Source: Parelaphostrongylus tenuis (Eukaryota > Nematoda > Chromadorea > Rhabditida > Metastrongylidae). From it: a stretch of 64,000 bases of DNA. Both the position numbers and the translations under genes were made by a program. The DNA lies in contig JAHQIW010000708.1 in NCBI GenBank assembly GCA_019055375.1, positions 215,258-279,257 of the forward strand, given 5' to 3'. This document shows, piece after piece, positions 6,798 through 62,054 of the stretch; within the stretch, counting starts at the first letter, position 1; each line of letters opens with the position of its first letter. The notes below the pieces were generated by a model. That model was not told the origin of the DNA, did no database searches, and was given only the letters and a program-made list of their open reading frames with translations.

Positions 6798-9700
6798 GAA
6801 GCATATATACATGTACATGTACATGAATACATATATATATATATGTATATATGTACATATATATACATATATGTGTATATATACGAAGTTCACAATGCAG
6901 TTCAAGAATAGTACACTATTCAGGGCGATCAGAAAACTGGTACTTCTGCAAAAACGAAAAAGGAAAATTCATCCGATAAAAACTAACTTTGTGATCATGG
7001 CCGCTTAAAATTAGATCCGGCTTGAGTGCTTCTGCCTGAAAATCCGATTTTCTTAGGAAAAAAGTTGAAACTGTAAAAAAATGAAATCCACTTCATCGTG
7101 AAACTAACCATTTTTTCTGGGTCATGATATGAAGAATAGCCAAACGAGATATGACTCAAAACAACGTTCAAATTAGGAAAAGCGGACGACTCCGAAATTT
7201 TATGGACTTCACCATTCATAAGGTTGACCTACAACGAATCTAAAATATTAGTCTTGAAACAATACAGCTCTGCTCCGTAAATTTTATAGATATTTAACTG
7301 CAGTTTATTCTTTGTTAGCCAACATGAGGTTTTTACAATACATTTCGTTTTAACGGCTAATGTTTCAACGATTTTGCCTTCCTTAGAGTTTGGAAAATTA
7401 GGTTGTCTACATCCAGCCAACGAAACACTTTCATCACTTCAACAGACAAATCACCAGACCTAGATTTCAATCGCATCAAGGACAAAAATCAATCTTCAAC
7501 ATACTCGCCGCTTTTTACCAGTCTTCAACTGAGTTGTCCGATTGAAGACCAACCCTATAGGTCACGCAGACTGCTAATGCATCCCAAATCAAAATAACAG
7601 TAAAGAGAAATAAGCCGAGGCGAAGCAAACGACAATCAACAACTAATCACTCTTAAAAAACGCCACGTTGGGTGATCTATTCACCCAACGTAGAATGCAA
7701 TTTATAAGGCGACGATTCTCTCTAACAGTATAACACGAGTAGCCGAATGGTAGTGGTTTTGATTAGGGGTGCGAGAAAGTCGAAACATACGTCCACCACT
7801 CGAGGTGCTATACCGGACTTCTGAAAGGCTTAAAAAATTCTATCAGGTCGAATTTTGCATTTCTAAGCAAGGTATGAAAATAGTCGACTGAAAGTGTCAA
7901 AAAACAGTCTTCTGCACTGTGGGCCTAGGCTATAAAACTTTGAGACTATTACAGACTTGTACTTATATAATGTACTGGAGATGATCGACCGACTGGGTTG
8001 TGGACAACCTGATTCTTCCAGGCTCAAAAGAAGGCAAAATCACCGGAACGTCAGCTGCTAAAAAGAAATTCGACAACCTCATGTTTGGTTTTTGAGGAAA
8101 AAATCGGGCGTTATTGAAGGACACCGAGGTTAACAGATAGTCGGTCTTAGGAATTTGTCAATTTTAATAGCTTACTTCAGTTAAGATCAAATGGTTGAAC
8201 AGCGTAGATGCTGGAAAGGAGTTCGAGAAAGTGTTCCGGAAACGGGTCGTCAAAACACTCTGTACCGGTTCCATTTCACCACCGACGTCATTATCACCAC
8301 TTATGAAGATTTTCTGACACAGAATAGCCGTAAACACGTAAGTTTTCGTTAACCTAAACAGACAACTTACAGGGCTTTCGGAATAGAAAAATATGTTTTT
8401 GAATCGTGACAACGTCCACTCAATTTCGGATTCACTGGCCTCAACACCTTCGTCAAATAAATCTCCAAGGAACACTATCAGATCGGGCTTTGTGACCGAT
8501 ACTGCGTGTGAAAATCCTTTTGAGAGAAATCTGCAAATTTGTTCATCAAATACTAGCAACAATAGCATTTTCATCTCTCATAAATGTGAAATCGTCCAAT
8601 TTTTAACTTAGGAAATATAACTCTCTTTCGCTGTTTTCGACTGCAATGCGGGAAAACGATTGGTGTAGTGGAAGAATCCTCTCCTGGTAATGGCGCAATG
8701 AAGGTTCATCTCCGGCCTGAGGTTCACTTTACTATTTAATCGAGCCGTCTTCACAGTGTTTCTGTTTCACTGTGCGGATGCCAGTACTTCAAGCATTCAA
8801 TTCGTTTATTCCGTCACCTTCGTTGAGTCGTAGAATCGTGCTATCTCGAGAAGAGCGTGGCTATGGCGCTCCGCAGGGCGTTCGTTATTGATTGCCAGAG
8901 AAGGTTGAGGGCCGGATAGACCGCGCGAGCCGCGACGAGAATCTCAACCATTCGGCCACGGCTCTTCGTTCTTTTCGCCTGACGATCAAAGTTTTGCAAA
9001 TCACTCAGCATTCGTGGGTATCGATAGGACATATTTTCGATGACGCTTAATGTATGCATAGTATAACATGAATACTTCAACGTCAAACAATTATGTGTTA
9101 GTTTACGGTGGCAAATCTATTAGATAAAAACACTGGATTCACATAACTTTTTCAAGGCAACAAAGATTTTATTGACTAGGACAAGATGCCTTGTTGGTTG
9201 GCGGTTGATACAGATGTACGATCGAAATTCGATTCTCTCAACCAGCTATAGAACCTTTGGAAATTGTGGAATCACCAAAACATATCGGGATGCTCATCCA
9301 GATCTACAAGACTTTGAGATGTCTCGACACTGTAAATCCAGTATTATGGGGGGATCAACAATATACTATTCACCTATGTTCTTGAAGAAGTGGTTGTTAT
9401 GCTCTTGCGGCGCTCGTGGGGTTGGGCTCCACCCCCCCACCCCAGCTCTCTCCGGCGGTCAACAAGGCCCTATGGAACGTCACAGCAAGGCTATCCTCGA
9501 GATTGTAAAGAGACTCGCTCGACTAGTATTCTACGCCATTCAAGAAGAAGACGAAAAAAAAAAACGATTTGAATGTTAGAATCACTGGGATCCGCACAGT
9601 TGAAATAAAACACTGTGATGACGGACCAAATAAACTGAAGTAAGGTGATGCAAAGTTTTCAAAAAAGACCAAATATTCTTAAGCAGATGACGAATCCACA

Positions 9701-10634
9701 GATGAAACACTCCAAAATATCTTAGATCCACTCAATGGGTTAGATAAAGAAAACAGATCCAAAGTATCAAAAAAAAGTTCATAATCTAATAACATTTTTC
9801 CGAAACTCTTTTGAATCTGTTATGGCACAAAGTACTGGACACGTGTTTCCCCGCTACAAGCTCACTAGTAGCATGGTGCCATTCGACACAGCCAATCCCT
9901 TGCAGGTGGATATACCCCTTACTTATAAGAGAATTGACGACAAATTATTTGATTCACAAAAAAACAGCATTGCCGTAAAATTCGTCGTTTTTCAAGCTAT
10001 TTCACTGAATTTTTGTTCAAGCGTTCCTTCCTAACGATTCATTTTAAGCCCTACCAGTAGAATGTGCCTAAGCAAACATTAGAACAAATAATTCGACGTT
10101 GAACTTATGGATTTGTAGAATTCAAAATTCTACGAATTCTATAAGCATTTATATTGTTAGAAGTGATTAAATATCTAGGGGGCCTTTGCAATGGTTCGCG
10201 GTGGCCTACCAACGCATCAAATCCGTGCTGCTATCATCCCAGACAGGTCTGGTACCAATTTGCCAAACTCAGAGAGATTGAAAGTTTGGTGAGCCTTGGA
10301 CGTGACATCGAGCCAAGGACCTTCTGTCTGACACAGGGCATCTCTAACCATTACGTCACAAGAGCTCTACAGATTATAAGACAAGCGCACAAATAGCGAA
10401 AGAGAATCCAGAGAAAAATGTGTAACTAAGAACTCTTAGATTCTCACCTATCGCAATCCCATCGTGTCAGTGGACCAATCATGTGATTCTCATTTCTGAA
10501 TCCAACTAACTGTGGATCCGCAACAATGAGTATTCCCAAAGATTCTAACGAATTCGACTGCGGTATATTCCAGAAAAGTCTCCAGTAGTAATAATTAAGA
10601 GATTCTCCCCAAACAATGGCAAGCACCAGTGCGA
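5561..10634 (-). CDS. Cdc1/MPPE1-type membrane metallophosphoesterase (PGAP5-like), 5' end missing
   Basis: Seven minus-strand exons join in frame: 10634-10448, 8530-8371, 8313-8176, 7228-7109, 7035-6988, 6019-5877 and 5783-5561 (stop TAA at 5561-5563), about 340 codons. Each junction has GT/AG signals (donors GTGAGA, GTAAGT, GTAAGC, GTTAGT, GTTAGT, GTGGTT). Order of features: a hydrophobic anchor (ALVLAIVWG then NYYYWRLFW), [45 protein letters not shown], then a C-terminal membrane span ending near the last 30 residues. This is the metallophosphoesterase order of human MPPE1/PGAP5 and yeast Cdc1, which remodel GPI-anchor ethanolamine phosphates in the early secretory pathway. Human PGAP5 has 396 residues, so roughly 50 N-terminal residues and the start codon are missing; the first exon should lie above 10634. 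The usual GN(H/N)D motif reads GDND here. Introns hold SINEs, repeat E and microsatellites. The family call is firm; exact function is inferred. Confidence 0.88.
6380..6436. repeat. AT and TTTA microsatellite
   Basis: The stretch is about 20 bases of alternating TA, then TTTATTTATTTA, then TA again. It lies in the sixth intron of the phosphoesterase gene, next to the SINE at 6451. Confidence 0.95.
6451..6753 (-). repeat. SINE-A copy, full length, tRNA-derived
   Basis: Read on the minus strand, the element begins near 6753 with GCGCATGTGGCGCAGTGGTT, a good Pol III A box (TGGCGCAGTGG). About 45 bases later it has GGTTCGATCTC, a good B box. The roughly 200-base tRNA-unrelated body ends in tandem TTTATCC units (plus strand AAGGATAAAGGATAAAG at 6451-6467). 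This is the architecture of a tRNA-derived SINE. The copy at 23510-23808 is nearly identical. It is flanked by AT microsatellites, so no target duplication can be read. The overlapping open frames on both strands are repeat-derived. Confidence 0.88.
6754..6885. repeat. AT-rich microsatellite (TA, TATG, TACA)
   Basis: Alternating TA with interspersed ATGTACATG and ACATATATATG units, about 130 bases, abutting the tRNA-like head of the SINE at 6451-6753. It lies inside an intron of the phosphoesterase gene. Confidence 0.9.
7700..8100. other. Intron with short tRNA-like and dispersed motif
   Basis: This part of the 7229-8175 intron holds a stretch at 7738-7800 (GAGTAGCCGAATGGTAGTGG) resembling a tRNA A-box region. 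It also holds one copy of the short dispersed motif G at 8025-8072 (AAGGCAAAATCACCGGAACG then TCAGCTG). I see no coding potential. Confidence 0.45.
8655..9085. repeat. SINE-like fragments in intron
   Basis: At 8660-8715 (GTGTAGTGGAAGAATCC ... GGTTCATCTCC) there is an A-box and B-box-like pair on the plus strand. At 8985-9030 the SINE tail seen elsewhere (TTTTGCAAATCACTCAGCAT then GTGGGTAT) appears. The minus-strand frame 9086-8841 is built on this repeat. All of it lies in the first detected intron of the phosphoesterase gene. Confidence 0.5.
9385..9700 (+). repeat. Dispersed repeat E copy 2
   Basis: This is the second copy of the repeat described at 4857-5200, including the CTAGTATTCTACG core at 9523-9535. 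It contains a short poly-C and poly-A run. Retroelement origin is a guess from its codable but unrecognised text. Confidence 0.45.
10176..10370 (-). repeat. SINE-A copy, truncated at its 3' end
   Basis: The sequence CAATGGTTCGCGGTGGCCTA, then CCCAGACAGGTCTGGTACCA, then ACATCGAGCCAAGGACC and CTAACCATTACGTCACA matches the tRNA-proximal two thirds of SINE-A. The 3' third (AAAGCTCTCGG end) is absent. It lies in the first detected intron of the phosphoesterase gene, about 80 bases from the exon at 10448. Confidence 0.75.
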
Positions 10635-16165: not shown

Positions 16166-16962
16166 CGGGACCATAGCAAAAATCGCCGCGCGCAGAGCGA
16201 TTTACAGCCGACGTGCGATTTTTGCTTAGTTAGGAATTTTTTCTTCATGCTGGAAATAATTCTACCCTTCTAGTAATAGTACGAAACTTCACAATTTTTT
16301 CTATACGTTCGTATGTTTTTAGTACAATTATACTATTGTTGGAACCCTGTAAACTGTAATAAGTTGTACAAATGAAACTATGATATTGATCTAATAGGTT
16401 CAGTATATTTCAGTACGTACATTACTTAGTAGTTAGCATAGTGTCTGAAAACCAGAAAAAAAGGAATAGGTCGTCAAAAATGATGCTGCTCGGTGGACGC
16501 GATGCCAAATCATCGATAACAAACATAACAAACTTTTCGGACCAAGGCTTTTCTCCAGACTTCCAGTAGTCATGCGTTAGTTTAAATTTCGACCATTAAG
16601 GTACATTATTTGGTTTTTGACAAAAGAAGTTTTTGGTGCGCTGTAGCAGTGAAAATAAAATATGTTTCACACTCGGTTTCCTTTGTCCGCTCGGCTTGGG
16701 TTTATAGATAACTCTCTATTCAAAGTTTAGAAGCTATTTAATAGCATAAATGATGACAATTCTAAAACTAATTTGTGTTCCAAAAAAAAACTCTATAGGA
16801 TGTTGAACGACCTGTAAGGATGACCACTAAAATTCCACTGAAAAGCCAAGCATATACGATATCGGAGCACATGAAGCAGCCCGAAGAGGAAACGTAATTT
16901 CTCTTCGCCGTTACTGGAGAGTAACAAAAAACATTTCTGCTATCGATTGCTTTTTTACAGAC

Positions 16963-17160
16963 CCGCTCAAAATGATTAAATGATTTTACTCGGCGTCGGT
17001 TCCTTTAGAGGATTATTTCACCTCAAGGGACCGACGGAACCGAGGTAGGGTGCTACTGATGAGTCCCAATAGGACGAAATAGGCGCCTATATAGCACTAA
17101 ACCTATGGCTCAAAATATGTCATATCCTTATCAGACAAAAAACATTGTTTAGAAATTGAG
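16963..17160 (+). repeat. Hammerhead-bearing repeat, best copy
   Basis: The unit runs from a TTTTTTACAGACCCGCTCAA block through ACTCGGCGTC, GGTTCCTTTAGAGGATTATT, the ribozyme at 17050-17097, and ends near CATATCCTTATCAGAC at 17143. The same ordered blocks occur in the copies at 22540-22850, 58430-58760, 58840-59165 and 61565-61800. The GACCCGCTCAA block, which in other copies lies at the opposite end of the unit, directly precedes the interior here. That is what a head-to-tail junction of two units would look like. No protein is encoded. Confidence 0.8.
17050..17097 (+). ncRNA. Hammerhead ribozyme (type I layout, short helix III)
   Basis: All core positions are present. Helix I is GTGCTA (17050-17055) pairing perfectly with TAGCAC (17092-17097). 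CTGATGA is at 17056-17062. Helix II is GTCC (17063-17066) with GGAC (17072-17075) around the loop CAATA. GAAA is at 17076-17079. Helix III is A-TAG with CTA-T (17079-17082 with 17087-17090) around the palindromic loop GCGC. The cleavage dinucleotide is T17090-A17091, so self-cleavage is predicted after 17091. Metazoan hammerheads with a very short helix III and palindromic loop are known from Penelope-like elements and satellite DNAs, where they tend to act as dimers. Activity here is inferred from sequence only. Confidence 0.9.
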
Positions 17161-17924: not shown

Positions 17925-18800
17925 TGCTTCATTTACGCCTACCTAGGTCGTGAAGTGAACATGATGAACGACCTAGCGCCAGATCTGAGCAGGAAAAAAC
18001 GAGCGGCTTAGGAAGCTTCAGCTCATCGAGGATTTTGTGAAGAGAACAAAGAACGTCTGACACTATACCCACATTTGCGCCTCGACAATTATCCTTGCCC
18101 TAACGTATGCAGCAGAAACTTGGTCGCCACGTAAGCAGGAACAAAGACCATTTGGCGTTGTTAAACGGAGTGTCAAAGATCGATACTAAGATTGATCCAT
18201 GACAATTTTGCTCTGCCAGCCGAGATCCATCGTCCAAGAAGTGGTGATGGACTAGTGTCATTGTACACTGTGCCGTCACCGGATACGCCTCCCTCCTTGC
18301 TAGAATGCAGGGCTTAGTGTGGGGCGTGGGTCACTGACGAGGTGGGCGAGACCTCCGAAACCCCGGTGTATGGCCCTGACGTACCAACCTCGCTTAGGCT
18401 TCAAACATTCTTTTTTTGGAATTATTTTGCATGACACTAGGATTATCCCGCATCTCGCAAATGAGAGAAAGGGTTCGAAGTTTCGAACTACGTCAACGAT
18501 CAAAAGTCAAGGATGCCGTTCTACAGGCCACGCTGTCAAAAATAAGGTGGGCCGGACACGTGATGTGCTTCAACGACAACCGATGGAAGAGAGCCGTTAC
18601 TGACTGGGTTCCTCGGGATATCAAGCGCTCTACAGTAAGACCACGACCCGATGGTCCGATTTCTTCACGAAGAGACTAGAAGAAAGATACGATGCTCAAC
18701 GAATCTCTAGAGCGAGAGAACGCACTGGGCTACTTTTCACGCGGTAGGGAAAAATGGAGGTGTTGCTCGAGTCACTCGACGATCAACGGACGACAGGTGA
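17925..18800 (+). pseudogene. RTE-type non-LTR reverse transcriptase, C-terminal part
   Basis: Broken frames in order read YLGREVNMMNDLAPDLSRKK (17940-18000), ALTYAAETWSPRKQEQ (about 18106-18160) and LRQRSKVKDAV, then SKIRWAGHVMCFNDNRW and RAVTDWVPRDIKRSTVRP (18480-18650). This is the conserved end of RTE-class endonuclease/reverse transcriptases that are abundant in strongylid genomes. At least two frameshifts and several stops separate the pieces. The 3' end near 18800 is followed by a TATG-rich tract. A second, poorer copy is at 2223-2610. Confidence 0.85.
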
Positions 18801-19602: not shown

Positions 19603-19780
19603 CCGCCACTTGCGGTGGTATGATCTTGTAATATACCCAATAATGTGGAGTGCTGTGCAAAAACATCTGCGTCAGCCGGGATTCGAACTCAGATCTCACT
19701 CTTTCCGGGAGCGCATGCTAACCGTTGCACCACCGACGCTCGTTTTTGCACAGCACTCTACATTATTAAGTATTACACAG
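19603..19780 (-). repeat. SINE-C copy with terminal inverted repeat
   Basis: On the minus strand the head is GTCGGTGGTGCAACGGTTAG (A box TGGTGCAACGG), then GAGTTCGAATCCCGGC (B box). The plus strand begins and ends with complementary blocks GGAGTGCTGTGCAAAAAC and GTTTTTGCACAGCACTCT. One end is therefore a copy of the element's tail in reverse, so the whole segment can fold into a stem. Confidence 0.8.
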
Positions 19781-19974: not shown

Positions 19975-20648
19975 TGACAAACTAATCGCTAGAATTTGAG
20001 GGTTTCAATTTGATCAACAGAGTCTGAGGGTTTCCACTTGATAAGCAGAACCTAGGGTTTTTCGACCTGGTCGCTGAAATCTGAGGATTTCGAAAAGACA
20101 GTCAAAATCTCACGGTTTCGGTCTGATCGCTCGAATCTGACGGTCTCGATCTGACCAACATAATCTGAGGGTTTCGAACTGATCGCTGGTATCTGAGGGC
20201 TTTGAGCTAATCGCTAGAATCTGAAGGTTTCGAACAGATCGCTAATCTGAGGGTTTCGAAGAGATCCTTAGAATCTGAAGGTTTCGACCTGATCGCTAGA
20301 ATCTGAGGATTTCGAACAAGACCCAAAATCTCAGAGTTTCGGTCTGATCGCTGGGATTTGACGGTCTCGATCTGACCTTGAGGGTTTTCGAAGAGATTCC
20401 TGGAATCTGAGGATTTCGGAAAGATAGCCCAAATCTTAAAGTTTCAAAGAGATTCCTAGGATCTGAAGGTTTCGACCTGATCGCTAGAATCTGAGGATTT
20501 CGGAAAAAAACCCAAAATCTCAGGATTTCGGTCTGATCGCTGGAATCTGACGGCCTCGATCTGACCAGTAGAATCTGAAGGTTTCGACCTGATCACTAGA
20601 ATCTGAGGGCTTCGAGCTGGTCGCCAAATCTGAGGGTTTCGAGAGGGG
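19975..20648. repeat. 28-bp minisatellite, about 24 units
   Basis: Tandem units close to ATCGCTAGAATCTGAGGG plus TTTCGACCTG (28 bases), with drift and small indels, run without interruption for about 670 bases. Variants with ACCCAAAATCTCA alternate with the main form, hinting at a higher-order unit. It ends abruptly at a GC-rich island. Confidence 0.92.
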
Positions 20649-20985: not shown

Positions 20986-21889
20986 TTTGTCCGTGGCTGT
21001 TGTGCTCCTTTTTTTTCGTGCCGGCAATAGTCGTACGCGAGAAAATTCCCATGTGTTGCGATTGTTTTCGCTTTGCTTGCACTGTGATTCATTCCATTTC
21101 CGTCCGCAGTTGACTCGGTTTGATCGCCTTTACTTGTTTAATTCAAGTATTCTATACTATTTCCAAATCCCTAAGGACCTAATGTTTTCCGGATTAAGGG
21201 GATTAGTTTGAAGTTAGTATTTATTGATTTGGCAAGAAATTTACCCCGACTTTTTCGTTTTTCTTGATCATTTTTCATGCGCTTAAGTTTTTGTTTCTAC
21301 TATCGTTTAGAGCATCTTCTTGCGGTCATTTTGATATATAACACTTACACATTTGTTTCGAGATCGAGTTATTACGGGCGCAAGAACGATTGCTTCACGA
21401 GATTCGCTTGAGTTCCGAGTACTGCTGAGACTTTCCGCCGGATTAACGAGGCCTGGGAGGACGGAATTGTTGAGAGGACCCCGGTTCTGGATCGTTCCAA
21501 TGCATTCGATGCCCAAAATGGAGATTTGACCTGCGAGTGAGAAGACAGCAGCCCACTAGAAATTGACCGGGACCAGCTATCTTGAATGTAACTGAGACGC
21601 CTCGGTGTCGACGGTCGACTCGCTTTCTGCCTGGCTGGCGATTTTGAATCGTGAAATTGCCGGGAAAAGTGGAAAGAAGTGATTGAAATTGAAAGGGAGT
21701 ACTTCGGTCTCTTGTTGTTTTTATTTGTTGAAAGAAAAAAAGCGGGATAAACTTGCACAAAAAAGGAAAAAGTCCGGAAAATTTCTTGCCAAGTCAATCA
21801 CTACACTTCGTAACATTTCGATCTCTTGACGTGATCACTTCTCGGTCTTTTTTCTTGTGATTTATTGACAAGCGATTAAAATCACCGAA
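20986..21889. other. No gene recognised
   Basis: Moderate-GC sequence with overlapping short open frames on the minus strand between 21307 and 21797, none resembling a known family. It could contain a 5' untranslated region or promoter tied to the GC-rich island, but no exon is supported. Confidence 0.4.
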
Positions 21890-22100
21890 TGACGTAGAGT
21901 GGTGTGCAAAAACGTTTGCGTCAGCCGGGATTTGAACCCAGATCTTACTCTTTCAGGGGACATGTGCTAAACCGTTGCACATGCTCCCGGAAAGAGAAAG
22001 ATTTGGGTTCAAATCCCGGCTGACACAAACATTTTTGCACACCACTTTACATTAATAGGGTTTATTTGGACATCATAACACCGCAATCGGCGGTCAAATG
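21890..22100. repeat. SINE-C inverted pair (foldback)
   Basis: The arms 21891-21965 and 21977-22053 are near-perfect reverse complements. Left: GTGGTGTGCAAAAACGTTTG then GTCAGCCGGGATTTGAACCC. Right: GGGTTCAAATCCCGGCTGAC then CAAACATTTTTGCACACCAC. The loop is about 11 bases. Each arm is a SINE-C head plus tail. The segment could form a 75-bp hairpin if transcribed. Confidence 0.85.
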
Positions 22101-22239: not shown

Positions 22240-22500
22240 TCATCTGCGGTGATGTGATGTCACAAATATACTCAACGATGTTGAGTGATGTGCAAAACGT
22301 TGACGTCAGATGGGAATTGGACCCGCATTTCATCGTTTTTGAAGGAGCGTGCTGACCAAGTGCCTCTCAATGCCTGTTTTGCTAACATTCTTTCTACGCT
22401 ACAATACATCAGTCTATCAGATGGAAGGGTGAAATGCTAGTTCGATTCCCGTCTGACCTCAAGGTTTTACACGTCCTCAACACCGTTGGGTATCTTGAAA
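22240..22500. repeat. SINE-C inverted pair, diverged
   Basis: The left half (GTTGAGTGATGTGCAAAACG, GACGTCAGATGGGAATTGGA) and the right half (GTTCGATTCCCGTCTGACCT, TTTTACACGTCCTCAAC) are complementary SINE-C copies separated by about 80 bases. Confidence 0.75.
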
Positions 22501-22539
22501 TCTTTTGGAAACCGACTTTTTGGATTTCTCCATATCACT

Positions 22540-22850
22540 AATCAATCATATACAATCTGATAAGGATACTACATGTTTTGAGCTAGTAGGTCTAGTGGTA
22601 TACAGGCGCCTGTTTCGTCGTGTTGGGACTCATAAGTATCACCCTCCCTCGGTTCAGCCAATCCCCTGGGGTCAAATAACCCTGTAAAGGAATTGACACC
22701 GATTAAAAAGTCACCCCGAGTCAAGTGATGTATTTACGCGACATTGTGGTGACCGGCAGTCGAGTACGTAGGTGTTAAAATGTATCAAACCTTTTCTGTT
22801 GACCGGTTTCTTTGGCCCCGCTCAAAAGATATACAGTTGGCTGATCAGAC
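22540..22850 (-). repeat. Hammerhead-family repeat
   Basis: The unit carries, on the minus strand, CACCCCGAGTC-type text, GGTGTCAATTCCTTTACAGG, the ribozyme remnant at 22595-22642, then CATGTAGTATCCTTATCAGA. Beyond the outer end it continues into GACCGGTTTCTTTGGCCCCG CTCAAAAGATATA, which is the start of another unit, so this too looks like a head-to-tail dimer remnant. Confidence 0.75.
22595..22642 (-). ncRNA. Hammerhead ribozyme remnant, core mutated
   Basis: The minus strand reads GTGATA, then CTTATGA (core G changed to T), GTCC, a loop, GAC, GAAA, CAG-GCGC-CTG, TA and TACCAC. Helix I has one mismatch and helix II is shortened. The substituted core residue is essential in known hammerheads, so this copy is probably inactive. 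Confidence 0.7.
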
Positions 22851-22859
22851 CAATGGCAG

Positions 22860-23498
22860 GAGGTAGATAAAAGGAAGAGTATAAACAGTTTTGTATGGGA
22901 GGGTATTACCGAGTGAGAGGGTCTTCGTTCGAGCGGTGCTGCTTCCTCGAAGGTGGTCTACTCGAACGTCAAAGGACGAAGGCCAAAGCCGTAATGAGAG
23001 CGAACGAGTGAGAATAACCGACTTGAATCATTGACTCTGAAGAAGACGAAAAAGTCGGAAAGTTAGCCGAGTAAATCTTGCATTCCATCTTGTGGTATCA
23101 GCTGAATCTTGAAAGAAACCATTTTTGATAGTAATGCCGAGGTTAGCTGAAAGTCTCTAAAGTAGTTCTCGAACGCTTCACGAAATCATGAAGCTCTCAT
23201 AAAACTGTTTTGAATTGGTTTTCTTTTATGATTTAGCCAATGGCGAGATGTTGATATGAGGAGTTGTTTGGCTGTTTCAGCGTCTTTCTTCTTCAGAGAA
23301 ATCTTCGTCTTTGTCCATACATTTCCCTGATTTCCTCATCTGAAGAAGACGAAGACATCGGAACGTCAGCTGAATAATTCTTCATATCAACCTAGTAGTA
23401 TTCGCTAAATTATTAGAGCTCTTGTGTAACATTTTAATGCAGGCTTTATGATTCCGTGAAGCGCTCGAGAAATACTTTGAAGGCCGACTTTCGCATAG
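22860..23498. other. No gene; two copies of dispersed motif G
   Basis: The short motif GAAGAAGACGAAAAAGTCGG then AAGTTAGCC occurs at 23040-23070 and again as GAAGAAGACGAAGACATCGG then AACGTCAGCTG at 23341-23373. Both are followed by ATCTTGCATTCC or TCTTCATATC-like text and GTGGTATCAG/GTAGTATTCG. No coding exon is seen. Confidence 0.5.
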
Positions 23499-23819
23499 CC
23501 TCGACATTAAAAGCTAAAGGATAAAGCTCTCGACGTTGATCAACCCCTGAGGGATGCGCCATGCAATCGACTTCAATTTTTAACTTCGTTTGAGGTGATT
23601 TAATGCATATCTGGCCTTTACAATGCTCGCGGTGGCCTCTCGCTGAACCGAGTCAGTGCTGCTTATCCTCCCAGACAAGTCTGAGACGTGCCTGGTACCA
23701 ATTTACCGACCCCGGAGGGATGGATGGCTTGGTGAGCCATGAGCGCGAGATCGAACCATTGACCTCGTGTGCGACGCAGAGCACCTCTAACCACTACGCC
23801 ACATGTGGCCTCGACATTA
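23499..23819 (-). mobile_element. SINE-A insertion with 11-bp target-site duplication
   Basis: The element body is 23510-23808 (299 bp). It is flanked by perfect direct repeats CCTCGACATTA at 23499-23509 and 23809-23819, the mark of target-primed retrotransposition. On the minus strand the head has the A box TGGCGTAGTGG and the B box GGTTCGATCTC. The tail ends in TTTATCCTTTAGC next to the duplication. It is close to the copy at 6451 over its whole length, so both inserted relatively recently. It carries no protein; mobility would depend on a partner LINE, possibly the RTE family seen here. Confidence 0.92.
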
Positions 23820-24893
23820 CCAATTAAAAATGGTATCTTTTGACCCTCCTCTAATACCACAAGATGATATATAAGATTTATTCGGCTACGTTTCGACATC
23901 TCCGCCTTCTTCAGAGCGGATGATTCGAGCCGATTGTTCTCACTCTACGGTCTTCTTCTGGTCTTCGTACTCGTTGACAATCGACTCGAATCTTCTTAGG
24001 TGGAGGAACACTCGCTCGAATGATGAGCCTGCCCTCACTCGACAATCCTCTCCCATAAAGGACGGTTTTTACTTTACCTCTATCATCCTCGTGTTGTTGA
24101 CCTGATCAACTAAGATTATGTGACTAGAAATGCCGAGGAAAAATATCGGTATTCAATTTATGAGTTTTGTGCTTGAGCCTTTAATGAATATCGGTGCTTA
24201 GTCTTACATTTCCTGGCGACTGGTTGCAGAGGCTTCCAAGTTGAGCCGCGATGGCTTACGAATAAATAATTTTTTAAAAAGTGAGTATCTCTTCTCTGGA
24301 TGTCTCACTCTATGGGTGTGTCAAGTCAAGTTCCCTATGAATAGGTGAAGGTGGTATGTTTGAGTCACTTATCGTCCTAGTGGTCGTTGAATGACTCAAG
24401 TGGGTACCAGTGAAATTTCTGTTCGACCCTATCACTTCCCACCCGTAGCCCAGTAGGTCCTTCTAGCTAGAGAGATTTGTTTAGCATCATATCTTTCTTC
24501 TTGGCTTTCGTGAAAGACTCGGACCATCAGGTTCGTGGTCTTTCTGTGGAACGCTCGGCATATCGAGGAGTTATTTTTCACTAGTACTGCCAGAAATGAT
24601 GTTCTTAAATAGATTCCATTCCCCAGCACTCAGGAAATCACGTGGAAACATCTTGGCTCATCATTCCCCTAGATTTCCAGGATTTTTTCCTTACATTTGT
24701 GAACCATTCATAGGTTTTTCGTCGTATTATGAAATAGCTGGAGTAGTAGTGATCATCTTCTCAGCTGAATGTTCAGTCTATACTCGACAGCGATTCAAGA
24801 AATCTTTCATAAAAGTACTTAATTCTTCTCAATGCTGTTACTGCGATGTCTTTTCAGTACTGAGAGGTCTTGTGTGTTTTTCAAGAGTCATAA
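23820..24893. other. No gene; one reversed motif G copy
   Basis: At 23866-23925 (ATTCGGCTACGTTTCGACAT then CTCCGCCTTCTTCAGAGCGG) lies an inverted copy of the dispersed motif G. The open frame 24596-25105 crosses into the deleted mariner at 24894 and is not a gene. Confidence 0.45.
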
Positions 24894-25382: not shown

Positions 25383-28915
<3,533 letters not shown>

Positions 28916-42175: not shown

Positions 42176-45100
42176 TCAAACATTGATGGAACTAGTGCCG
42201 CCGCGTCGGGAGGGGGACAAGTTATAATTGACTCGTTTCCGACTACGAGATGCGGCCTGATAGGTGAGTAACATTGATTTCTTTTAATCATCTTTTTTCT
42301 CAAGAGATTCGTGTTGGCCTAGACTACGAGTGATACGACACATCAGAATTGTTACAAGGTCTGCGTGCTTGTGGTACGAAGCATAAAGTAATGAGAAAAT
42401 AGATTATTTCATGAAGAAGCACTGAGCGGATTTGAGTTTTCGGGTAGACGGCTGATCCCCTTTAATGGAATTTCTGATAAATTGAAAAAATACGGTTTTC
42501 ATCTGGATGTAGTAACAGTTGAAAAGAAGCTAACTTCATAATCATTGTAAGATGGTACAAAAGTTTAAGGTAACAACAAGAAAACTCAATAAAGCTATTC
42601 TATACCTAAGAGCACAGATTTTCTTAGTAATGAGATAAGTGATTTACTATATCTGGTCGCTAGTTTGATCACGTATACTAAGCCTCCGGAGCTTGCGAAA
42701 TGGTTCAGATTTTTTCTGAGAGGTTACAAATATTGTCTTGATTTGTCTTTGGGCCCACGGAGGTCACTGCTTAAGCCAAGCGTGCAATTGTTCATCTTTA
42801 TCATGTCATGAACAGAGTTGAAGATCCCCTTCAAATTACATGACCGTTAACATATTTCAGAACATCGACTAGCACTTCCTCTTCAGTTATGTGTATAGCT
42901 CTTAATGATACCAAAGGTAGTCACCAGATGATTACATATCATAGCAGTCAAAATAAACATGTGCTGATAGAGAAGCTAAAATCTTATAGTCATTTATTTA
43001 CATTTCTAATGTTCGTTAGAGAATTTACAGTGATTGGAAAAGGGTATGCAAATAAGTAATCGTAATAAAACTGTACTAATGTAGATAAAGAAGTTAAATA
43101 AGATTTGGTGATGCTTATGTGATTAAATGACTGTGTTTGCATTCAGTTGAAGTTCAGTGTGTTTTCAGAACAAACAATTCTCCGATCGTCGACGAACCCA
43201 ATCATCAATGCGAAGATGCGGTACGGGCAGCTCGTCTGGCACATTCCATCTGTTTGTCTCGTCTACCGAATGAACAAATTCTGATCCGAGATGAACTCGG
43301 TGAAACTGTCATGCATCGAGTTATCAGAGAACGGGACTACAATTCCGCCAAGTACGGTATGAGTAGCTCAGCGATGATCCAATGGTCCATAACCTTTTCC
43401 GGGGCGCGTGCTAAGCAATCGCACCACTGACGTCTGTTTATCCACCACTCTTTATATACGGTGCAACGTATCTATATGTCAGCAACAAACCGTCAACGGT
43501 TTGACCCGGCAAGCCATATTGGCATTGATCCCAGTTACGCTCACACATATTGTATATATGTGATCAACATGATTATTTTTGTTTAACCGCTTTATTTAGC
43601 AGTGGTTCAATGTTAATAACATACCCAATAATGTTGAGCTACTGCTAAAAAAGCAGGTAAACAAAAAGAATCACGTTGATCAAATAAATCCAATATCTGT
43701 TAGCGTAACTGGGATCAAGGCCGATTTGGTTTGCCAGGCCAAAGCGTTGACGGTTGCTGACAGACTGATGCGTTGTAGCTCAGAAAGAGTGGTGAAAAAA
43801 CAGGAGTCTGTTGAGCAACTGGTTGGAACGCGCCCCCGGAAAGGGTGAAATGCGAGTTCGATTCCCGTCTGACGTCGAAGTTTTGCACATCACCAAAAAT
43901 TATTGGATATATGACTAGCATCATACAACTCCCAAGAAAGCAGTCAAATGAAAAGAATCATGCCATACCATAGCCGTTCGCATGCGCGCACACATTTCTG
44001 CAGCTCAGCAAAAAATCCTACAGTAGTTATTGGGTTACGGTTGAGCGATAGATGAAATAGCTGCGAGCACGTACTGTCTAACGAAAAATATGGGAATAGT
44101 TCTAGGAGACAACTGAGCAGAAGTCATGTATCTGTACAACAATGAATAGTATTGAGAGACACTTGATTTGATTTTTCAATGTTTATTTTAGTCAACTAAA
44201 ATTTGATAGTATAACCTATGAATGTTTTGCTTTTTTTTTGAAAAAATTCTCTATATTTACTCAATCACAGGAGAAATTGACGTTTCAGTGGACTTTTTGA
44301 AATCTCTTTCTTACGTTTTTGTTTCGAATTGTTTGAGTTACTACAGATACCTACTGTTTACTATCTGCTCAGCATCAATTCTCAGCGCAGAGATTGATGT
44401 TGCTGTGTCATTATCATCATTGTTCTATTATTTTGACACATTTAAAACTATATGTGCTGTCTAGTTTTTATTTGTTTATTTTACAAGAAACCAAGAAACC
44501 AAAAACAATTTATCGTGCGGATCTCAGCCAGAATTACATTCTCCGTCTCAACGACGGTCTTTGAATTTGCGAGGGATCAACAGCTGCTGGAGTACGTGTA
44601 GCTCAGTGGTTAACGGCTTCTGGAATTCACGCGATTTTTAGCAATTTAATCCGTTTCCCACGGCTTAATCAAATTAACACCAATTCAATAGCCTCTACGG
44701 CTGAACATTACGTTCTTTATCTTTCATTGTTACAGTTTCCCATCAAATATCATTTGGTGTGGATTCGTTAGCATTGAATTTTTCACTTATGTTCGGAACA
44801 GGTTGATCACATTTCCCAACAGCTCACACAATGTTTATTCAACTCTTTGCCCACTAACGTGCCGTCGCGCAGTGAATGCGCTTGAGTCGAAGAAGAAATT
44901 TGTGCAACTTTGATGAATGACATTTTTAAGGCTGACGGCACTTATCGAACGTGAAATACATGAAATATACGCTGATGGCTAGCATTACACAGTATTTTCT
45001 CTAGTAACTCATAAGAAAAGCTTTGCATAACTTGCTGAATTAAACATAGTCGATTTTCCTCTACACATATGGCTGAACTCCAAGGTTATTCAAACATTAT

Positions 45101-48100
45101 AGAGCACTTCTTGCATATTCAGTAACAGTACATAACCGCATTAATACTGTCGTTGTCGCAACTGCTGCTGAGTATGTTAGTCAGAGATACCGCGTAATAC
45201 ATGCATACCTCTACAGTTTAACGCCAATCGTGTAAAATAGCGCAGCCGCTGATTAGAGTACCACCTAGTCTGCTGACAGATTTATTAGTTTATAGCTGTT
45301 TTTTGATAAACTAGATCCCTGGACTGATGTAATTAAGTTGATTCGAACAGCTGACGTTTCAACAGATTCTGCCTTCTCTAGAGCCTAGAGAGATCACATT
45401 GTCTACAAACTAATAAAGTGCCTTCAATAATGCAGCAAATAAGCACCCAGCTTAGATTTCAGTCGGATTTACAAGATAATTTTTCATACGCTCACTACTT
45501 TCTATGAGTCTTCCGCTCTGGCCCACGTGGAGACCAACTGTGCAGAGTTCACTGGTCTGCCAATACATAGCTCATATCAAAATGTATTGGTCTTGTATTA
45601 CTGCGTCAAATCGCGTGTGGCAACGAGGAATTCCTCGCTGCGGTTCATTTCTGGATTCGTGGTATTTATCCAGAATGCTGTGAGAAGTGAGAATCTTACA
45701 CGTTGAGGTTCCACATTCTTGTGGGAGGATAGTGAGTTCTGCTTTAAATTTTTCTTGTCTTGTTTGTGTGTCTTACGCGAGTCTAGTGGGGTATTTGGCT
45801 TAGAATTAATCTTGCCGCCTAGGTACTTTTTCCGTACGGACACAGAGTAGCCGACGCGTATGTCTGATGTATTTGTAAGGTGCACGCTGCACACTTTGCC
45901 GTTGAGACATATTATGGAGTTTTGCGTTCTACATATACACTCATACAAACAGCTGTGAATCAGCTGGTGCCCCGAAAATTTCGGTGATGTTTCAATCATC
46001 GTAGTGTCTCTGTAAGCATACCTTTCTTCAATGGCGTTCTATAGCTATACTTATTTCATCTGGAAGAAGTATTAAGAATACCTTATTTCGACTGAAAAAA
46101 TCTTTTCGGGCGCGTTATGTCCTCTAAACTTAGCGTGATTAGTTACATTTTCGAAGCTAATGGAAATGTTTATTTGCCAAGCCAATTTTAAAGGCTCTTC
46201 CTTCTTCTCTATTTCCGTAGATACACTGATTGCAGTTATTCAGGCGGCTTTTCGTAGGTCGGTTGTGGAAAGAGAGATAATGAATCAGTATGATCTTATT
46301 ACTTGGCTATCGATACCACTTGGTGACGACAATGATTAAGACACTATGAATATCCTGAGGAATCAATTGGTGTGCAAGTGCTTGTATGATTGTCTATTTA
46401 CAACGCAGGACTGCGCAATATTTTCAAACGGTAAAGTCAATGGTGACCTAAGTACGGGCAAAGTTAACAAAGTCTCTTTTAAAGCGTGAAGGGGCGAACA
46501 GATCGGCGAAAGAGTAGACTACTCTAAATCGGCAAAGAATATCTAGTCGATGAAGTCAAAGCTAAGCCAAATACCCACGAGCAGTGTATGGGTCACAGGC
46601 ACATAACTGGAAAGAATTTGAAGTAGAAGTCACTATCCACGAATAGGAATATAAAACTTCGGCGCTTAGGATTACAGAAGCTTTTTTATTAATCCCATGA
46701 ATCCATATATGAGTTTCAGGAAGGAGTGCGTTGTCTCCATGTGTGATTTGACATAATATATAGATTGATATTTGATGTACACAATTGGTTTCCACGTGGA
46801 CAATAAACTGGAAGATTCAAAGAAAGCGGTGCTTATGTTGGAAACTTTCTACCTGATACGGCTAAAATCTACCGTTTCTTCCGTCGTAGTAATGGATGTG
46901 CCTGGATAACTGTATTGTAGGCACCCTAGTTCAAACAGGATCTGAAGAAGAAGAAGAAATCCGCTGAAATATCAGCTTGCAAGCAAATTTTATCGTATAA
47001 ACCTCGTCATACATTGTTAGCGAAAGAATGTAAGATATTAAGCAACACCTGAGGCTAATAGATAGTTTGTTCGAAAATTATTTACTTGGTAGCCTGCTGA
47101 ACACGAACTTGCAGGCTTCTGCTACAGAAAGCGCCTGTTTTACGTGAGATGACATCGTTGACCGGTGAGACGCCTGCACATATCGCGATTGCCATGGGGG
47201 AACGGCAAATCGTTGAGCTCTTACTTTGTGGACAACTAAATGAAACGCTAAAGGCCGCTTTAACCAGGTTCTCTTTGATTTTATACAAGTTAAATCTTAG
47301 TTATCATAGTTAGGACTTTGCAAAAATTTATATAAGATGGTTAAGAAACTTCCAAAACTGTCTGCCTTTTTCATATTTTCATCTTCAGATTTTTTGATTT
47401 CTCTGTAAATTCATTTGGATCAAACCCATTCTGTCAATGATATCAATGCAATTCATGCATAAGTATTTGATTGGTCCGTTTTTATAAATAATGGAGTCGA
47501 ATCAGGATATCTTTGGTTAACTAATTCATTGTTTAATTTACTTTCGGCATTGTGTTTCCCTTAAATCTCCAAGAGGATTCTGCTATAAATACTTACGTCT
47601 TCATTAGCAACGTCCACATTTTGTTTGTGAAAGCTCTGAGATCGTTTCGCTTCCACATCATATCCCTTCCACTATGGCAAAACCGTGAACATTCGGCTGA
47701 TCATAGCTATATTCTCATAATTGATATCTGAGCCAAATTGTCATATGGTCTATTAAATGGGCTCTTCGCCAGCCCGATACATGTGTTGCGACCTGGATAG
47801 TCTCGTCAGTAGGACAGAACCTTTAGTTTTTTAGCCAATCTTCTGTGGGGGCTCCAATCCCCACACTAAGATTAGGCGAAAATGAACGACTTACACCACA
47901 CTGCTGTCAAGTGAAAATCACTGGAACAGCAGACCACATGACAAGTTGGCTCAGCTAACAATTATGAGATATACTGAAATTTGAGCGAGGTCTTAAGAAA
48001 AAACTTGAAGAGAACGGTATGATATAGCGATATTGTTCGGCAACAATGTTGCGAAATTTTTAGAGACATCAATGGTACATCTATTTTGACAGCAAGTATA

Positions 48101-51100
48101 ATTCATGGCAACAATCTGATAGCACTGTGGCTTCTTCGAACATTCGGAAAAAAGCTGGCAATGCTACCGAACAACTTCCTAATGATTCCGTTACATTTGG
48201 CAGCTGCACAAGGTATGTGGGTAGATATGTATGACAAATAAAGGATAAAAAGATGAAGGGATAATGGATCTGGACTTATCGTTGTCAGGGATGTTTCATG
48301 CATACAACTCTAATCGTAGCATGGAGAAGGTAGTAAAATCTGGATTTGGCCTAGACAATGACCTACAAATGCTTACTTGTATGCTACGTCGGCTTTTGTT
48401 CTTTCGAGCTATTTTGGTAGTGAAGTCAGACCGAGGGTCTGGATGGTGCACTAGAAAATACAGTAAGCCCCCAGAAGGGGTAATATTGTGGATTCGAGGC
48501 CACCTCAGATTGCATGCTTTCGTAAATCTACACCATCGTGGTCAAGCTTGTATTACTTTAATTATTCCATAAAATAAGAAGATTTGCTAGGTAGGCGCGG
48601 GTCGAGCCAGTAAAGTGTTATTGTGCGATATTTTAAACCGCAGAGTTTATCGTACGTCAATGCAGTATTCATAAAAGAAACTTCGATAAATCTGCTGCTC
48701 CGGTTTAACTAAGAGTTTTGGCATAATGAGTGTAATGATTGCTTCTAATGGAAGTTTAATGAGCGAAGAACTATAAATTCAAGTCCCATTCTCATTTGAT
48801 AGCTAAAGTTCTTCAGAACGGCTACAGAAAACTGTCAAATAGGACAGAGGAGGGAAGCTACCCATTTTTTTGCAGTCTGTTCTCTTAGGATCTGTATACT
48901 TATCCTTAAAAATATCATTGAACTAGTCACTTAGAAATCGGTCTTTCGAACCGTCTTCACTCTGAATCATTTCCCTGATTTTACCAATTTTTTTTGTCTC
49001 TTCATCGATCAGTTCCCATGAAGGTGCATTTCAGGTAATTTGGAGTATGTCAAGCTTGCAACAAAATGGTTTCCGAAGTCAGTGGATGCACGGGACGCAT
49101 TTGGTAGTCTTTCCCAACGATTAAGTTCTATTTACAAGTTTAGCTGAATGTGATACTACAGGGCAGAAAGCTGAAATAAACGAACTAATCGTTTTTTTTG
49201 GTATCAAACTTCGCAATGTGATTTAACATACTTCTTGTGCCGATCAGGTTGTACTCCATCGGCGTACGCTGTTCAAGGTGGCTGTTTGAACACACTTGAA
49301 TTTCTTGTGGAAAAAGCACATGCTAGAATTGGATGTGTGAATCGAAAAGGTACTGATCGCTTAAGTTAGCTATTTTTGCTTCTCTTTTCCCTTTCTATTT
49401 TATTCAACAATGCCTGTTCCTTAGTCCACCTCTTTGAAATGCCTTCTCATATCGTCACAAAACAAAGCGACAAAATTTTTCCATGGTTAAAAAGTCAATT
49501 TGTTGATTTATGAATTGAAGTCAATGCACACATAACAGGCAGAATGAATTGCATGCATCGATGTCAGTGTATATTATTTCCGATAGTTTGTTGGACGTCA
49601 AAGTGTTCATTTGTTATTCTTCCTTATATTTTATGGAATGCCTATTCAGCTTAGGAGTAGTATGTTTTTCGTGGAAATATTTTGCATACGTATACATGTA
49701 ATCAGAAAGCAAAGTGATAAAGTGATAAGCAAGGCGCAGGTTCGATCTCTTCCCCCATCACTCTCTGGCAATGAATCAACGAATGTCTTACGAAAATCTA
49801 GCTCGGCTATCTCCAAGACTACAAGGAAAGTTGTCTCGCCTACCATCTCTATAACATTCTCAAGGAAGACGAAACTTTGAGCCAAAGAAACGGGTGAAAT
49901 ATTCTTTGCTGGAAATGAATGCGAGGCGACTAATCGCATGTAGAAACTGGGATCGACATAGTAGTGTGTAACATTCCTTTTCGAACGATTTTCTCAGTGC
50001 ACACTTCGCTTAGGTATTCAAAATAACAGAGTATTACTGTGTGTACTCGCATTCACAATTGTAATTTCTCTACATTCTTATGTTAACTTTGAACGAGTTC
50101 ATCTTACAGGTCAATCGTTGCTCCATATAGCATCGCTGTGTGGTTATGAGAAAATCGTGCGGTGGATTCTGGATCGTGTAGACATGTACATGATTCTTTG
50201 GAGGACAGCTGATGAGGCAAATGCGATACACTGCGCAGCATGTATGTAACTTCGGAACCTTATGTAGTATTATGAGTCTAAATAATTCAAATTTGTACAA
50301 CATGTTCGTTTCGTCCGTTTATCTCTGTGATTAATTTTAATCCATAATTACTTTGTAATCCTTAATGCGGCACTGCATCTTGAGGAAATCAAGCCCCTCC
50401 ATAAATCTGGAGTCGGCTTTCAATGGCAAAATTGTCTCAGAGTAAAGAAATACTAAAGTTAATAAATGCTAAGCCACCGCTCACTGTGTAGGCCACATAT
50501 GCATTTGATCACTTCTATTTTGCCACGAAAGAAGCCAAATACATGATGCATTGTAAAGATTCTGATCAACATCGAACACCTTATCCTTTATTCTTGATCT
50601 CGTCTGTTTAGATCATGGCAGCGTCCCAATTTTACGCCTTCTCCTACTGCCATGGTCACGAAAAAAGAGGCAGTCTGTTCTGAAAATACGCGACGGAAGA
50701 GGAAATACCGCTCTACATCTTGCTGCTATGAACGGACACTTTGAAGCTGTGAACTACTTGGTGGCGATGATTGTTTTAAATATCTGCGTTATTAGTTGCG
50801 TCTCAAATCTTATGCACGAATGGCTTCAGAAATTCATGCCACGTCCTTTGAATGCATAGAAAGTTTCCTGAGCTCAATCGATTTTTATAGACAATCAGTG
50901 CTTGAAAAGTTTTGTTTAAGGCAAACGTAATGCATTTTATCTTTTTTAAAATCGTATCCAAATATGCCCACTGATGTAGAGTAATATGCAGAACTTTTTG
51001 TCTCAGCTTGGACTCGAACTCACATTTCATCCTGTCTGAGGCGCGTGCTTGAACCGTTGCACTAACAACGCCTGTTTTGACACCACTCTTTTAACGCTGC

Positions 51101-55702: not shown

Positions 55703-57420
55703 ATGCATCTCTTTGAGATCCTTGCCTACTAGGATTTCAGTTTCATATACTTGATAAAAATCAAAACCTTCCATTTACCATGTCGATACAGTTTTCCAAA
55801 GTTGTTGATATATTTTGATGCTTCTTTAACAAATTTAGTTTATAACAGAGATCTGCTCACTAGAAATCGACATTTTATTACGCCAAGGCAAGCAAAAAAT
55901 TTTTATTTCCAGTGGTAAAATCTAATTCAAAAGTGTCTATGTTCTTTTGAAATATGTCACATTTAATGATATGTTTGTAGTATGGACATATGCCGATAAA
56001 TCTGGATGTGGCTGTGCTTGATTTGTCTAAGATATTCCGTATAGATTTAGTGATACTGAGCACATATCTTTTATTTTATTTTCAGTTTCCTTTTAACAAT
56101 ATCACTCCTATAATTATACTTGTGATTGGTGATTTAATCTCACTCACAAGGGAATCACGTTCCAATTTTACCCTGAGTTGCTACGAGTGCAAGTGGGGAA
56201 CACAACATCTAACATGCACCCCGGACGCAGCATTTTACTTTGCCCGGAGCTTTCTAGATCAGAACGTGCTTTTTGCCACTGTTGCTCAATTATAGTCGTC
56301 ATTTGTCACCGATGGCAACTGATGTGGTAATGTATCTGTGTGCTGCGAAAGGTAAATGACTTCAGAAACTGTGTTGAAGCTCTAATATATGCACAAAACA
56401 AGCTGCTTTGACAAGAAATATCAAAAACAGCATAAATTGTCCATAGTCAGTGCACCACTGCATGGGCCAATCGCTACGGAGGTAGGTCAACATGATAATG
56501 TACTTGTCGATTGTAGGAGCTAAATGAGAGCAATCCGTCAAGGGTTAACAATTAAATGAAGCAAATTTTTTTATAAGAGCCATGAAGAACGCTTTTTACT
56601 GTTTTTTAACTGAAATCAAGAGCTTCATTGCTACCGCTTATGAAATGGCCACGTGCAGCGCAAGTAACAAAACAGCGCCCGATTTTCGTTTTAAAATTGA
56701 GATTTGTTTCTCTGTTTTGAAAAATTCTCAGGTTTTTTCTCTATTTTGACGCCCATGCTTTTTTTCATAGATTCTTCCAAGTTTTTTGTGCATAAACAGC
56801 CACTATGCGTGAAGATAAAGTGTTTGTCTACTACACAAACATGCTGTTGCTAGCATTCAAGCAATTGCGATATAATTTACAAATAACGCTATGATATAAA
56901 TCTTGGTATTTCAATATGATTTTATTCCATACAATGTCCGAAAATCATCGTAGAAGTTGAGAATCACGGGACAATGATTATTTACCAAAAGTAATGTTGC
57001 AAACTGCATGCATGCGATGTCAATTCATGGAGAACTCTCACCAAATTTTTGATCATAAGTGCATCTCAGGAATTTATATCTCTATGAAATCATAGAACAC
57101 ACTTCTTCTTCTATCGCTCCATAGGTGTTAGCTTTGTATATATTTTCATATAGTGTGCTGTGAACATCATTTATCCTACGACGTCCGTCACCACGCATGC
57201 ACACTATTTTTATGTGCTTTACGTATTTTTTCCAGTTAAATGTCCTCAAGTCAATTTTCCGCACCTTCTCCAGGCTACTTTTCTATATAATCGCCATGTC
57301 ACCACATGCAAGTGGTTTTGAAGGTAGACAACTCGTCAGTACCGTAGTCGACTTCAATCTTCATCTATGCAGTATACCGAGTCACAGCTATCGCATGAAA
57401 TATGCCGATAAAGAACCGTA
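55703..57420. other. Ankyrin gene 3' flank, repeat D piece
   Basis: 56640-56770 (GCACGTGCAGCGCAAG-like text, CGATTTTCGTTTTAAAATTG) resembles repeat D. A minus-strand frame (57264-57082) reading RKIDLRTFNWKKYVKH has no firm family match. No gene is called. Confidence 0.4.
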
Positions 57421-57799
57421 ATAGGCAACTGTCAACCAGAGAAAATTGCATTTCTTAGACAATCCTGATTGCTGTTTCATGAAGAAACTGTAATTTAACA
57501 CCGAACACGCCATGAAGCGGGTTTGTTCACGTTTACACTGAATCACAAAGATATGTGCTCAGATCAATGCTCATTGTCTTAACTGAGCACATGCAAAAGT
57601 GCTTGAATCAATGTATTTCGTAGCGGGTTTGTTAGATGTTTTATGGTCCCACGTCATAAATCACTGTGGCTTTTTTTCTCAGAGATGTAACACATGAAAC
57701 GCTTTAGCATTTATTTTACAGATATAACACATGCATCACTTTGGTGCCAAACTATTCAAATCTAACACATGAATACTGGTACTGGTACTATATTTTTTT

Positions 57800-57865
57800 G
57801 CGGATATGACAAGATATGACAAGACAAGATATGACAAATATGAATTTTACAGATATGATATGATA
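57800..57865. repeat. Short ATATGACAAG tandem repeat
   Basis: Three to four units of GATATGACAAG with ATATGAC spacers. The matching complement ATCTTGTCTTGTCTTGTCAT is at 59802. Confidence 0.8.
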
Positions 57866-58760: not shown

Positions 58761-58839
58761 CATGTTTTGACCCATCAAGCCAGAGCCATGATCCTGTGTA
58801 GCACTTAATCCTTAATAGCCCAGAACATGTTATATCCTT

Positions 58840-61560: not shown

Positions 61561-61564
61561 GCTT

Positions 61565-61800: not shown

Positions 61801-62054
61801 CGATCTGAACTTATAACACGCGTTCACTTGCACGGATCCATAGAAAATCTATCAATGCAGTTAGAAAGGATGAGATGTGACATCGGTGGCTTCTCTATGG
61901 CATGACGGCGCTACTCATTTCACTCTGTCTACGACACCAGAGAAAAACTCTTTGCAGGAACATAATGTAGATGAAGAGGTCTTAGCGAAGTTGCATTCTC
62001 GTAAATCGAGCTTGACCATAAACGTCAGTTTATCATATCTTTTTTTTGAGTGTT

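Follow-up and report, generated by a model that had tools for sequence, protein, structure and literature searches.

A type I hammerhead ribozyme motif in a probable retrozyme-like repeat of a strongyloid nematode

The 64-kb stretch of DNA analysed here, referred to below as the window, carries on its forward strand (17050-17097) a type I hammerhead with an intact core and three helices that, read from the sequence, are perfectly paired. That this is a real hammerhead, at the level of a sequence motif, is hardly in doubt. In our interpretation, it is probably a genuine type I ribozyme housed in a small, non-coding, retrozyme-like mobile element of a strongyloid nematode, a likely relic of a sort of element that other animals also have. 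The motif belongs to a dispersed repeat, is directly preceded by a conserved hairpin and, in two of the copies, recurs within a period of about 281 nt. In addition, folding energies have been computed for single and paired ribozymes.

All the features that define the type I class (CUGANGA ... GAA(A) ... UH, three helices and an open-ended helix I) are present in this stretch. Specifically, a preliminary description had listed the conserved elements in order, and each of them is there letter for letter; its account of the helices, with six base pairs in helix I, four in helix II and four in helix III around a GCGC loop, likewise agrees with the sequence (Table 1). The distal part of helix I, at 17046-17105, which that description leaves out along with the upstream hairpin and the positions of the other four copies, is also placed by the alignment to the Rfam HH9 model.

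Table 1. Hammerhead elements, repeat copies and associated structures in the window
Feature	Position	Strand	Basis or remark
Helix I, 6 bp	GTGCTA 17050-17055 pairs TAGCAC 17092-17097	+	sequence
Core CTGATGA	17056-17062	+	sequence
Helix II, 4 bp	GTCC 17063-17066 pairs GGAC 17072-17075; loop CAATA	+	sequence
Core GAAA	17076-17079	+	sequence
Helix III, 4 bp (A17079-T17090 counted)	17079-17082 pairs 17087-17090	+	sequence
Loop III GCGC	17083-17086	+	centre of 12-nt palindrome 17079-17090 (AUAGGCGCCUAU)
Predicted cleavage site	between A17091 and T17092, after TA	+	sequence
Extended helix I	TAGG 17046-17049 pairs CCTA 17102-17105; TAAA bulge 17098-17101 between	+	sequence
Conserved hairpin directly 5' of ribozyme	16989-17044	+	fold energy, covariation
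3' tail of c17k, conserved	17098-17135	+	BLASTN to c22k (82%) and c61k (82%), ends 17135 and 17133
Inverted piece (tail and following unit) at 5' end of c17k	16923-16976	-	BLASTN 78%, E 4e-4, to 61536-61587
Copy c22k	22499-22815; hammerhead 22595-22642	-	nhmmer E 1e-94, profile including c22k
Copy c58k	58401-58729; hammerhead 58505-58552	-	BLASTN, profile, core reading
Tail repeats of c58k	58698-58779 and 58413-58498, ~281 nt apart	-	BLASTN
Copy c59k	58793-59180	+	BLASTN, profile; partial hammerhead (3' half) from 58793, then decayed hammerhead
Second tail of c59k	59091-59168	+	BLASTN
Copy c61k	61540-61848; hammerhead 61631-61678	-	BLASTN, profile, core reading
Palindrome, c58k and c59k head to head	57344-60301	.	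arm-to-arm alignment, BLAST identity 76.5%

The frequency of such a motif by chance was estimated with a descriptor scan of both strands, which required the core together with at least five pairs in helix I, four in helix II and three in helix III, and with two looser settings; the background consisted of 377.6 Mb of first-order Markov sequence having the transition frequencies of the window. At the three stringencies the background gave 4, 33 and 150 matches, corresponding to 0.0007, 0.0056 and 0.025 per 64 kb, and the window gave one match at every stringency, always 17050-17097. With an expectation of 0.0007 per 64 kb against one observed, the earlier judgement that a chance occurrence is very unlikely is borne out. 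A loose gapped pattern, for which 2.2 matches are expected, occurs six times in the window, and 5 of 100 shuffles contain as many; besides the match at 17056, three of these matches fall in the c61k copy of the repeat and two at a site near 32 kb that is taken for chance.

No Rfam hammerhead model reached its gathering score in the window. The best one, RF02275 (Hammerhead_HH9), scored 25.4 bits, its cut-off being 52, a value that is Rfam's threshold for this one model and no structural feature of the type I class, with an E-value of 0.052 over the whole window and of 2e-4 over the 251 bases searched. The motif shares with HH9 the core, helix II and the two-part helix I, and differs from it in that loop 1 of helix I is without its 5' strand. 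The refutation test proposed earlier, a covariance score at background level, has neither failed nor been cleanly passed on these figures. Rfam scans of the remaining copies of the repeat returned no hammerhead.

The hammerhead had also been said to lie in a repeat, and four other copies, decayed to differing degrees, do occur in the window. The copies were located by BLASTN and by a repeat search, and an nhmmer profile was built from all five, i.e., c17k, which bears the motif described above, c22k, c58k, c59k and c61k. By construction this profile recovers the five copies, with c59k at 58863-59180 (+); it also detects two partial tails at the centre of the palindrome, and two weak matches (9861-9941, E 0.012; 47784-47848, E 0.8) were left uncounted. 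In BLASTN comparisons, c17k is 82% identical to both c22k and c61k over about 150 nt, and the latter two are 85% identical to each other over 200 nt. The G+C content of four copies is 41-46%. An intact core accompanied by all helices is found in c17k alone, and the core is changed in three of the five copies: it reads CTTATGA in c22k and CTGAGTA in c59k, and in c58k, where helix II is weak, GGAA replaces GAAA. The core of c61k is intact, with one mismatch in helix I and one in helix II. The outermost pair of the extended helix I is T-A in c17k and G-C in c61k, and is mismatched in c22k. Summed over the ten pairs of copies, identity amounts to 114/130 in the core, 317/449 in helices and loops and 404/570 in the hairpin. 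The inverted piece at the 5' end of c17k and its counterpart at 61536-61587 face opposite ways with respect to the element, as in a 5' truncation of c17k with inversion. Because c17k has lost its 5' part and borders there on an inverted piece of tail, the intact ribozyme resides in a truncated copy that cannot itself release a unit; judged from its sequence, c17k looks like an intact ribozyme in a dead copy.

The length of the unit can be read from c59k, in which 281 nt (58799-59079) separate the two cleavage positions, the left site being only half a hammerhead whose 3' half starts six letters ahead of the cleavage position. In both c58k and c59k the tail that follows the hammerhead recurs about 280 nt upstream (BLASTN), and each of these copies accordingly holds about 1.3 units. 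When a tail string, picked by eye and most like c58k and c59k, was scored against the upstream sequence, c58k reached 90 and c59k 126, compared with 95% levels of 32 and 35 in 200 letter shuffles; c22k scored 30, equal to its shuffle level of 30, and by the same comparison the upstream tail is absent from c17k and c61k. The period of about 281 nt is present in two of the five copies, both of them inside one palindrome, and a full dimer of the unit was not found within the 64-kb window.

The palindrome is 2.96 kb long. Its midpoint (about 58795) falls some 4 nt from the hammerhead cleavage position, a distance that is approximate, as the central 51 letters are unaligned. Around 1.1 kb per arm does not belong to the hammerhead unit. 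Other self-complementary sequences occur in the window, in particular a stretch of 226 bp (84%) at 62025-62250, near c61k, and inverted repeats just upstream of c22k (22842-23142 with 23809-24108, and 23132-23509); the 226-bp stretch has a 50-bp motif (62185-62234) in common with the palindrome arms (57949-57996 and 59623-59670). Inspection of the repeat revealed no LTR, and Pfam found no transposon domain in the open reading frames (ORFs) overlapping or near the copies.

The hairpin and the hammerhead were also examined for folding and for covariation. Hairpin and ribozyme together (129 nt) fold at -47.4 kcal/mol, an energy as low as which was seen in none of 200 shuffles; taken by themselves, the ribozyme stretches are not more stably folded than shuffles (z -1.23 in c17k, +0.73 in c22k, +0.33 in c61k and +0.49 in c58k). 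Among the five aligned rows, 3 of the 19 hairpin pairs are changed on both sides, as many as in 79 of 500 shuffles, and the covariation score of the hairpin was reached by 13 of 500. For the hammerhead, two pairs are changed on both sides among the five rows, a count equalled in 257 of 500 shuffles. A rival pairing between GGGUGC and GGCGCC is kept in 87.7% of cells across the copies, compared with 87.4% for the hammerhead, and RNAalifold favours it over the hammerhead pairing. This equal conservation, together with the choice made by RNAalifold, is evidence against a simple monomer reading of the ribozyme.

Calculations on paired molecules, whose free energies ignore tertiary contacts and concentration, were made on four of the five copies, c59k being omitted because its core is broken. 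As a monomer, the c17k 60-mer adopts the hammerhead at -12.7 kcal/mol against -14.8 kcal/mol for the best fold. For two such 60-mers, the double hammerhead lies at -45.3 kcal/mol against a cofold minimum of -45.5 kcal/mol, a structure with a shifted helix I that is open distally. When the hairpin is included, the unconstrained two-copy minimum of c17k is the double hammerhead itself (-113.3 kcal/mol, compared with -94.8 kcal/mol for a pair of monomers); it contains the two hairpins, helices I and II of each copy and a helix III of 12 bp. A computed exchange of the GCGC loop for GAAA turns the hammerhead into the monomer minimum of c17k. The 12-mer is its own reverse complement in c17k, c22k and c58k and contains two G.U positions in c61k; shared ancestry alone could explain why the palindrome is kept across copies. 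Although the 12-bp helix III is part of the dimer minimum in all four copies, this minimum is not the double hammerhead in three of them (c61k, c22k and c58k). The earlier suggestion that the GCGC loop and helix III point to a dimer is thus upheld by free energy for c17k and not for the other three copies, and, on these models, the odds that the ribozyme prefers to act as a dimer appear even.

If the favoured interpretation is correct, each hammerhead would cut a transcript that spans more than one of the units of about 281 nt, the host would then close the unit-length RNA into a circle, and its return to DNA would take place via the reverse transcriptase of another element; cleavage, circles and retrotransposition are what we infer for the life of this repeat. 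The main working form of the ribozyme would probably be a double hammerhead to which two units contribute. Specifically, in a single unit the GGCGCC of helix III would pair with the GGGUGC of helix I, thereby blocking the hammerhead fold, and in two units the same 12 nt would build the 12-bp helix III, leaving helix I free. The production of small circular RNAs with the help of ribozymes is attributed to animal retrozymes. Should the retrozyme-like reading hold, the phylum of C. elegans would gain such elements, and a single short sequence, for which the expectation is clear, would permit a test of monomer versus dimer activity in type I hammerheads.

A more far-reaching proposal is that these copies represent a nematode hammerhead family with a built-in dimer switch, in which GGCGCC silences the monomer and activates the pair through the 12-mer. 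The midpoint of the palindrome close to the cleavage position would then look like the trace of a ribozyme-made 5' end that was copied into DNA with a snap-back. We consider this rather unlikely; if true, only tandem or multimeric transcripts would cut themselves, and unit circles as well as host transcripts reading through a copy would be spared.

The attribution to a nematode, already made in the preliminary description, is supported by the protein encoded at 18398-18676. This protein has 18 relatives, 15 of them with a source name, which come from Parelaphostrongylus tenuis (1, 75% identity), Angiostrongylus cantonensis (6), Necator americanus (6) and Heligmosomoides polygyrus (2), all four species being nematodes of the superfamily Strongyloidea. 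The source names include 'Endonuclease-reverse tran...' and 'Reverse transcriptase'. The regions 2211-2873 and 18398-18676 are two decayed LINE ends, 78% alike at 2266-2492 and 18440-18666, which we take, partly from the source names of the relatives, to be of the RTE type. A tie between the repeat and the nearby fragment at 18398-18676 was considered and rejected: the surroundings of the second fragment lack a copy of the repeat, and neither fragment contains a match to the repeat profile.

As for coding content, Pfam recognised no reverse-transcriptase, endonuclease or transposon family in 30 stop-free ORFs; the LINE fragments among these were left unnamed as well, which makes this negative a weak one for reverse transcriptase. 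A crude search for motifs among the 269 ORFs of at least 60 aa returned five with short matches, none of them a reverse transcriptase as judged by eye. An internal pol III promoter in the unit was likewise rejected, given that no B box occurs within one mismatch in four copies; B-box matches with two mismatches are found in two of the four, and loose A-box matches in all four. Elsewhere in the window there is a family of dispersed tRNA-like repeats, SINE-like by look, at approximately 8974-9023, 19635-19739, 21884-22060, 22248-22496, 28431-28581, 43757-43923, 50959-51276 and 60346-60871, one of which (19668-19739) exceeds the Rfam tRNA cut-off, as well as a degenerate tandem array whose period is 28 bases (20060-20628) and an exon-like ORF of a Ras-family GTPase (25682-26047; Pfam PF00071, E 8.6e-10). 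Searches of other collections gave no match to three repeat patterns in viral contigs, none to one c17k stretch in phages and none to one c22k stretch in plasmids. A 19-letter pattern with one open letter matched bacterial genomes four times; by eye, no hammerhead follows any of these matches within 60 letters, and they look like chance. Made up of viral, plasmid, bacterial and archaeal sequence, these collections are hardly informative on nematodes.

Other origins of the motif have to be weighed against a retrozyme-like element. The preliminary description had linked it to Penelope-like elements, and the copies could in fact be pieces of the pseudo-LTR of such an element, with minimal hammerheads acting as dimers. 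The palindromic helix III and loop, the tail found at either end of the c58k and c59k units and the fold calculation favouring a dimer in c17k would all suit this origin. However, the hammerheads of Penelope-like elements are described, in the parts of PMC7761336 and PMC6155905 available to us, as minimal, without helix III or loop-loop contacts, and the 4-bp helix III, the two-part helix I and the unit of about 281 nt disagree with the link; the 30 stop-free ORFs, moreover, yielded no reverse-transcriptase or endonuclease family in the weakly negative Pfam search. A palindromic loop III is known, according to the legend of Fig. S8 of PMC3088659, from several repeat-type type I hammerheads, and is consequently no pointer to Penelope. 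We find no support for this link and hold a Penelope-like origin to be quite improbable.

A different possibility is that a non-autonomous palindromic DNA element, foldback- or MITE-like, captured the hammerhead repeat and spread as DNA, with the ribozyme as a passenger. This would fit the presence of the repeat in both arms of the palindrome at 57344-60301, the inverted tail piece at the 5' end of c17k and the further inverted repeats near c61k (62025-62250) and c22k, but c22k and c61k themselves lie outside any palindrome when their 3-4 kb surroundings are compared with themselves, and such a capture seems unlikely to us. Finally, the motif might be a hammerhead-like sequence arisen by chance in an ordinary repeat without ancestral ribozyme activity. 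The Rfam score under the curated cut-off and the lack of significant ribozyme covariation in the five rows could be taken in this sense; on the other side stand the expectation of 0.0007 per window, the better conservation of the core than of the helices among the copies and the second intact core, in c61k, and this explanation is very improbable. The reading as a small retrozyme-like element is the one that we prefer.

Among hammerhead-bearing repeats, SM-alpha of Schistosoma is alike in its type I hammerhead, its SINE-sized repeat and, presumably, a similar helix II with its loop, and different in its phylum and, presumably, in its flanks and loop 1. A literature search recognised no natural nematode hammerhead among the matches listed, judged by title and start of the abstract; an earlier mention is possible, and the element at 17 kb is not claimed here as the first nematode report. 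The word nematode is absent from the main text, as far as available, of PMC7229834, PMC7761336, PMC6155905 and PMC3088659, and the uses of it displayed from PMC8490949 are unrelated.

The non-LTR retrozymes of animals, as portrayed in excerpts of PMC7229834, consist of tandem type I hammerheads with units of 170-400 nt and a G+C content below 50%, and are made into circles. With those of coral, mussel and axolotl the nematode repeat shares the type I hammerhead, a unit within 170-400 nt, a G+C content below 50%, a short helix III with a self-complementary loop, the non-coding nature, as far as tested, and, in c58k and c59k, a length that exceeds a single unit (about 1.3 units). It differs from what these excerpts describe in its nematode host, a hairpin immediately upstream of the ribozyme, the mostly decayed state of the copies and the lack of a full tandem. 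The circular unit of c59k, which is decayed and was the sole unit folded, has an energy of -55.4 against -60.6 +/- 5.4 in shuffles; it is not unusually self-paired, unlike the retrozyme circles in the same excerpts (PMC7229834). Amphibian retrozyme hammerheads are stated there to act as dimers. In the satellite hammerheads of newt and axolotl, whose cleavage takes place as dimers (excerpts of PMC7229834 and PMC6155905), a palindromic tetraloop on helix III is found as in the present case, in which the dimer is predicted to be favoured, whereas helix III has one or two base pairs instead of four and the copies are tandem rather than dispersed as in this window. The minimal hammerheads of Penelope-like elements and Terminons, in the passages of PMC7761336 consulted, have in common with this motif the type I permutation and the proposal of a dimer; they are devoid of helix III or of tertiary contacts and reside in reverse-transcriptase elements, none of which was found here by an admittedly weak test, and the 4-bp helix III and bulged two-part helix I set the nematode motif apart from the minimal hammerheads of Penelope (PMC7761336, PMC6155905, in part). 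In the length of the unit, its G+C content and its partly tandem arrangement, the repeat resembles small non-coding animal retrozymes more than it does Penelope-like elements.
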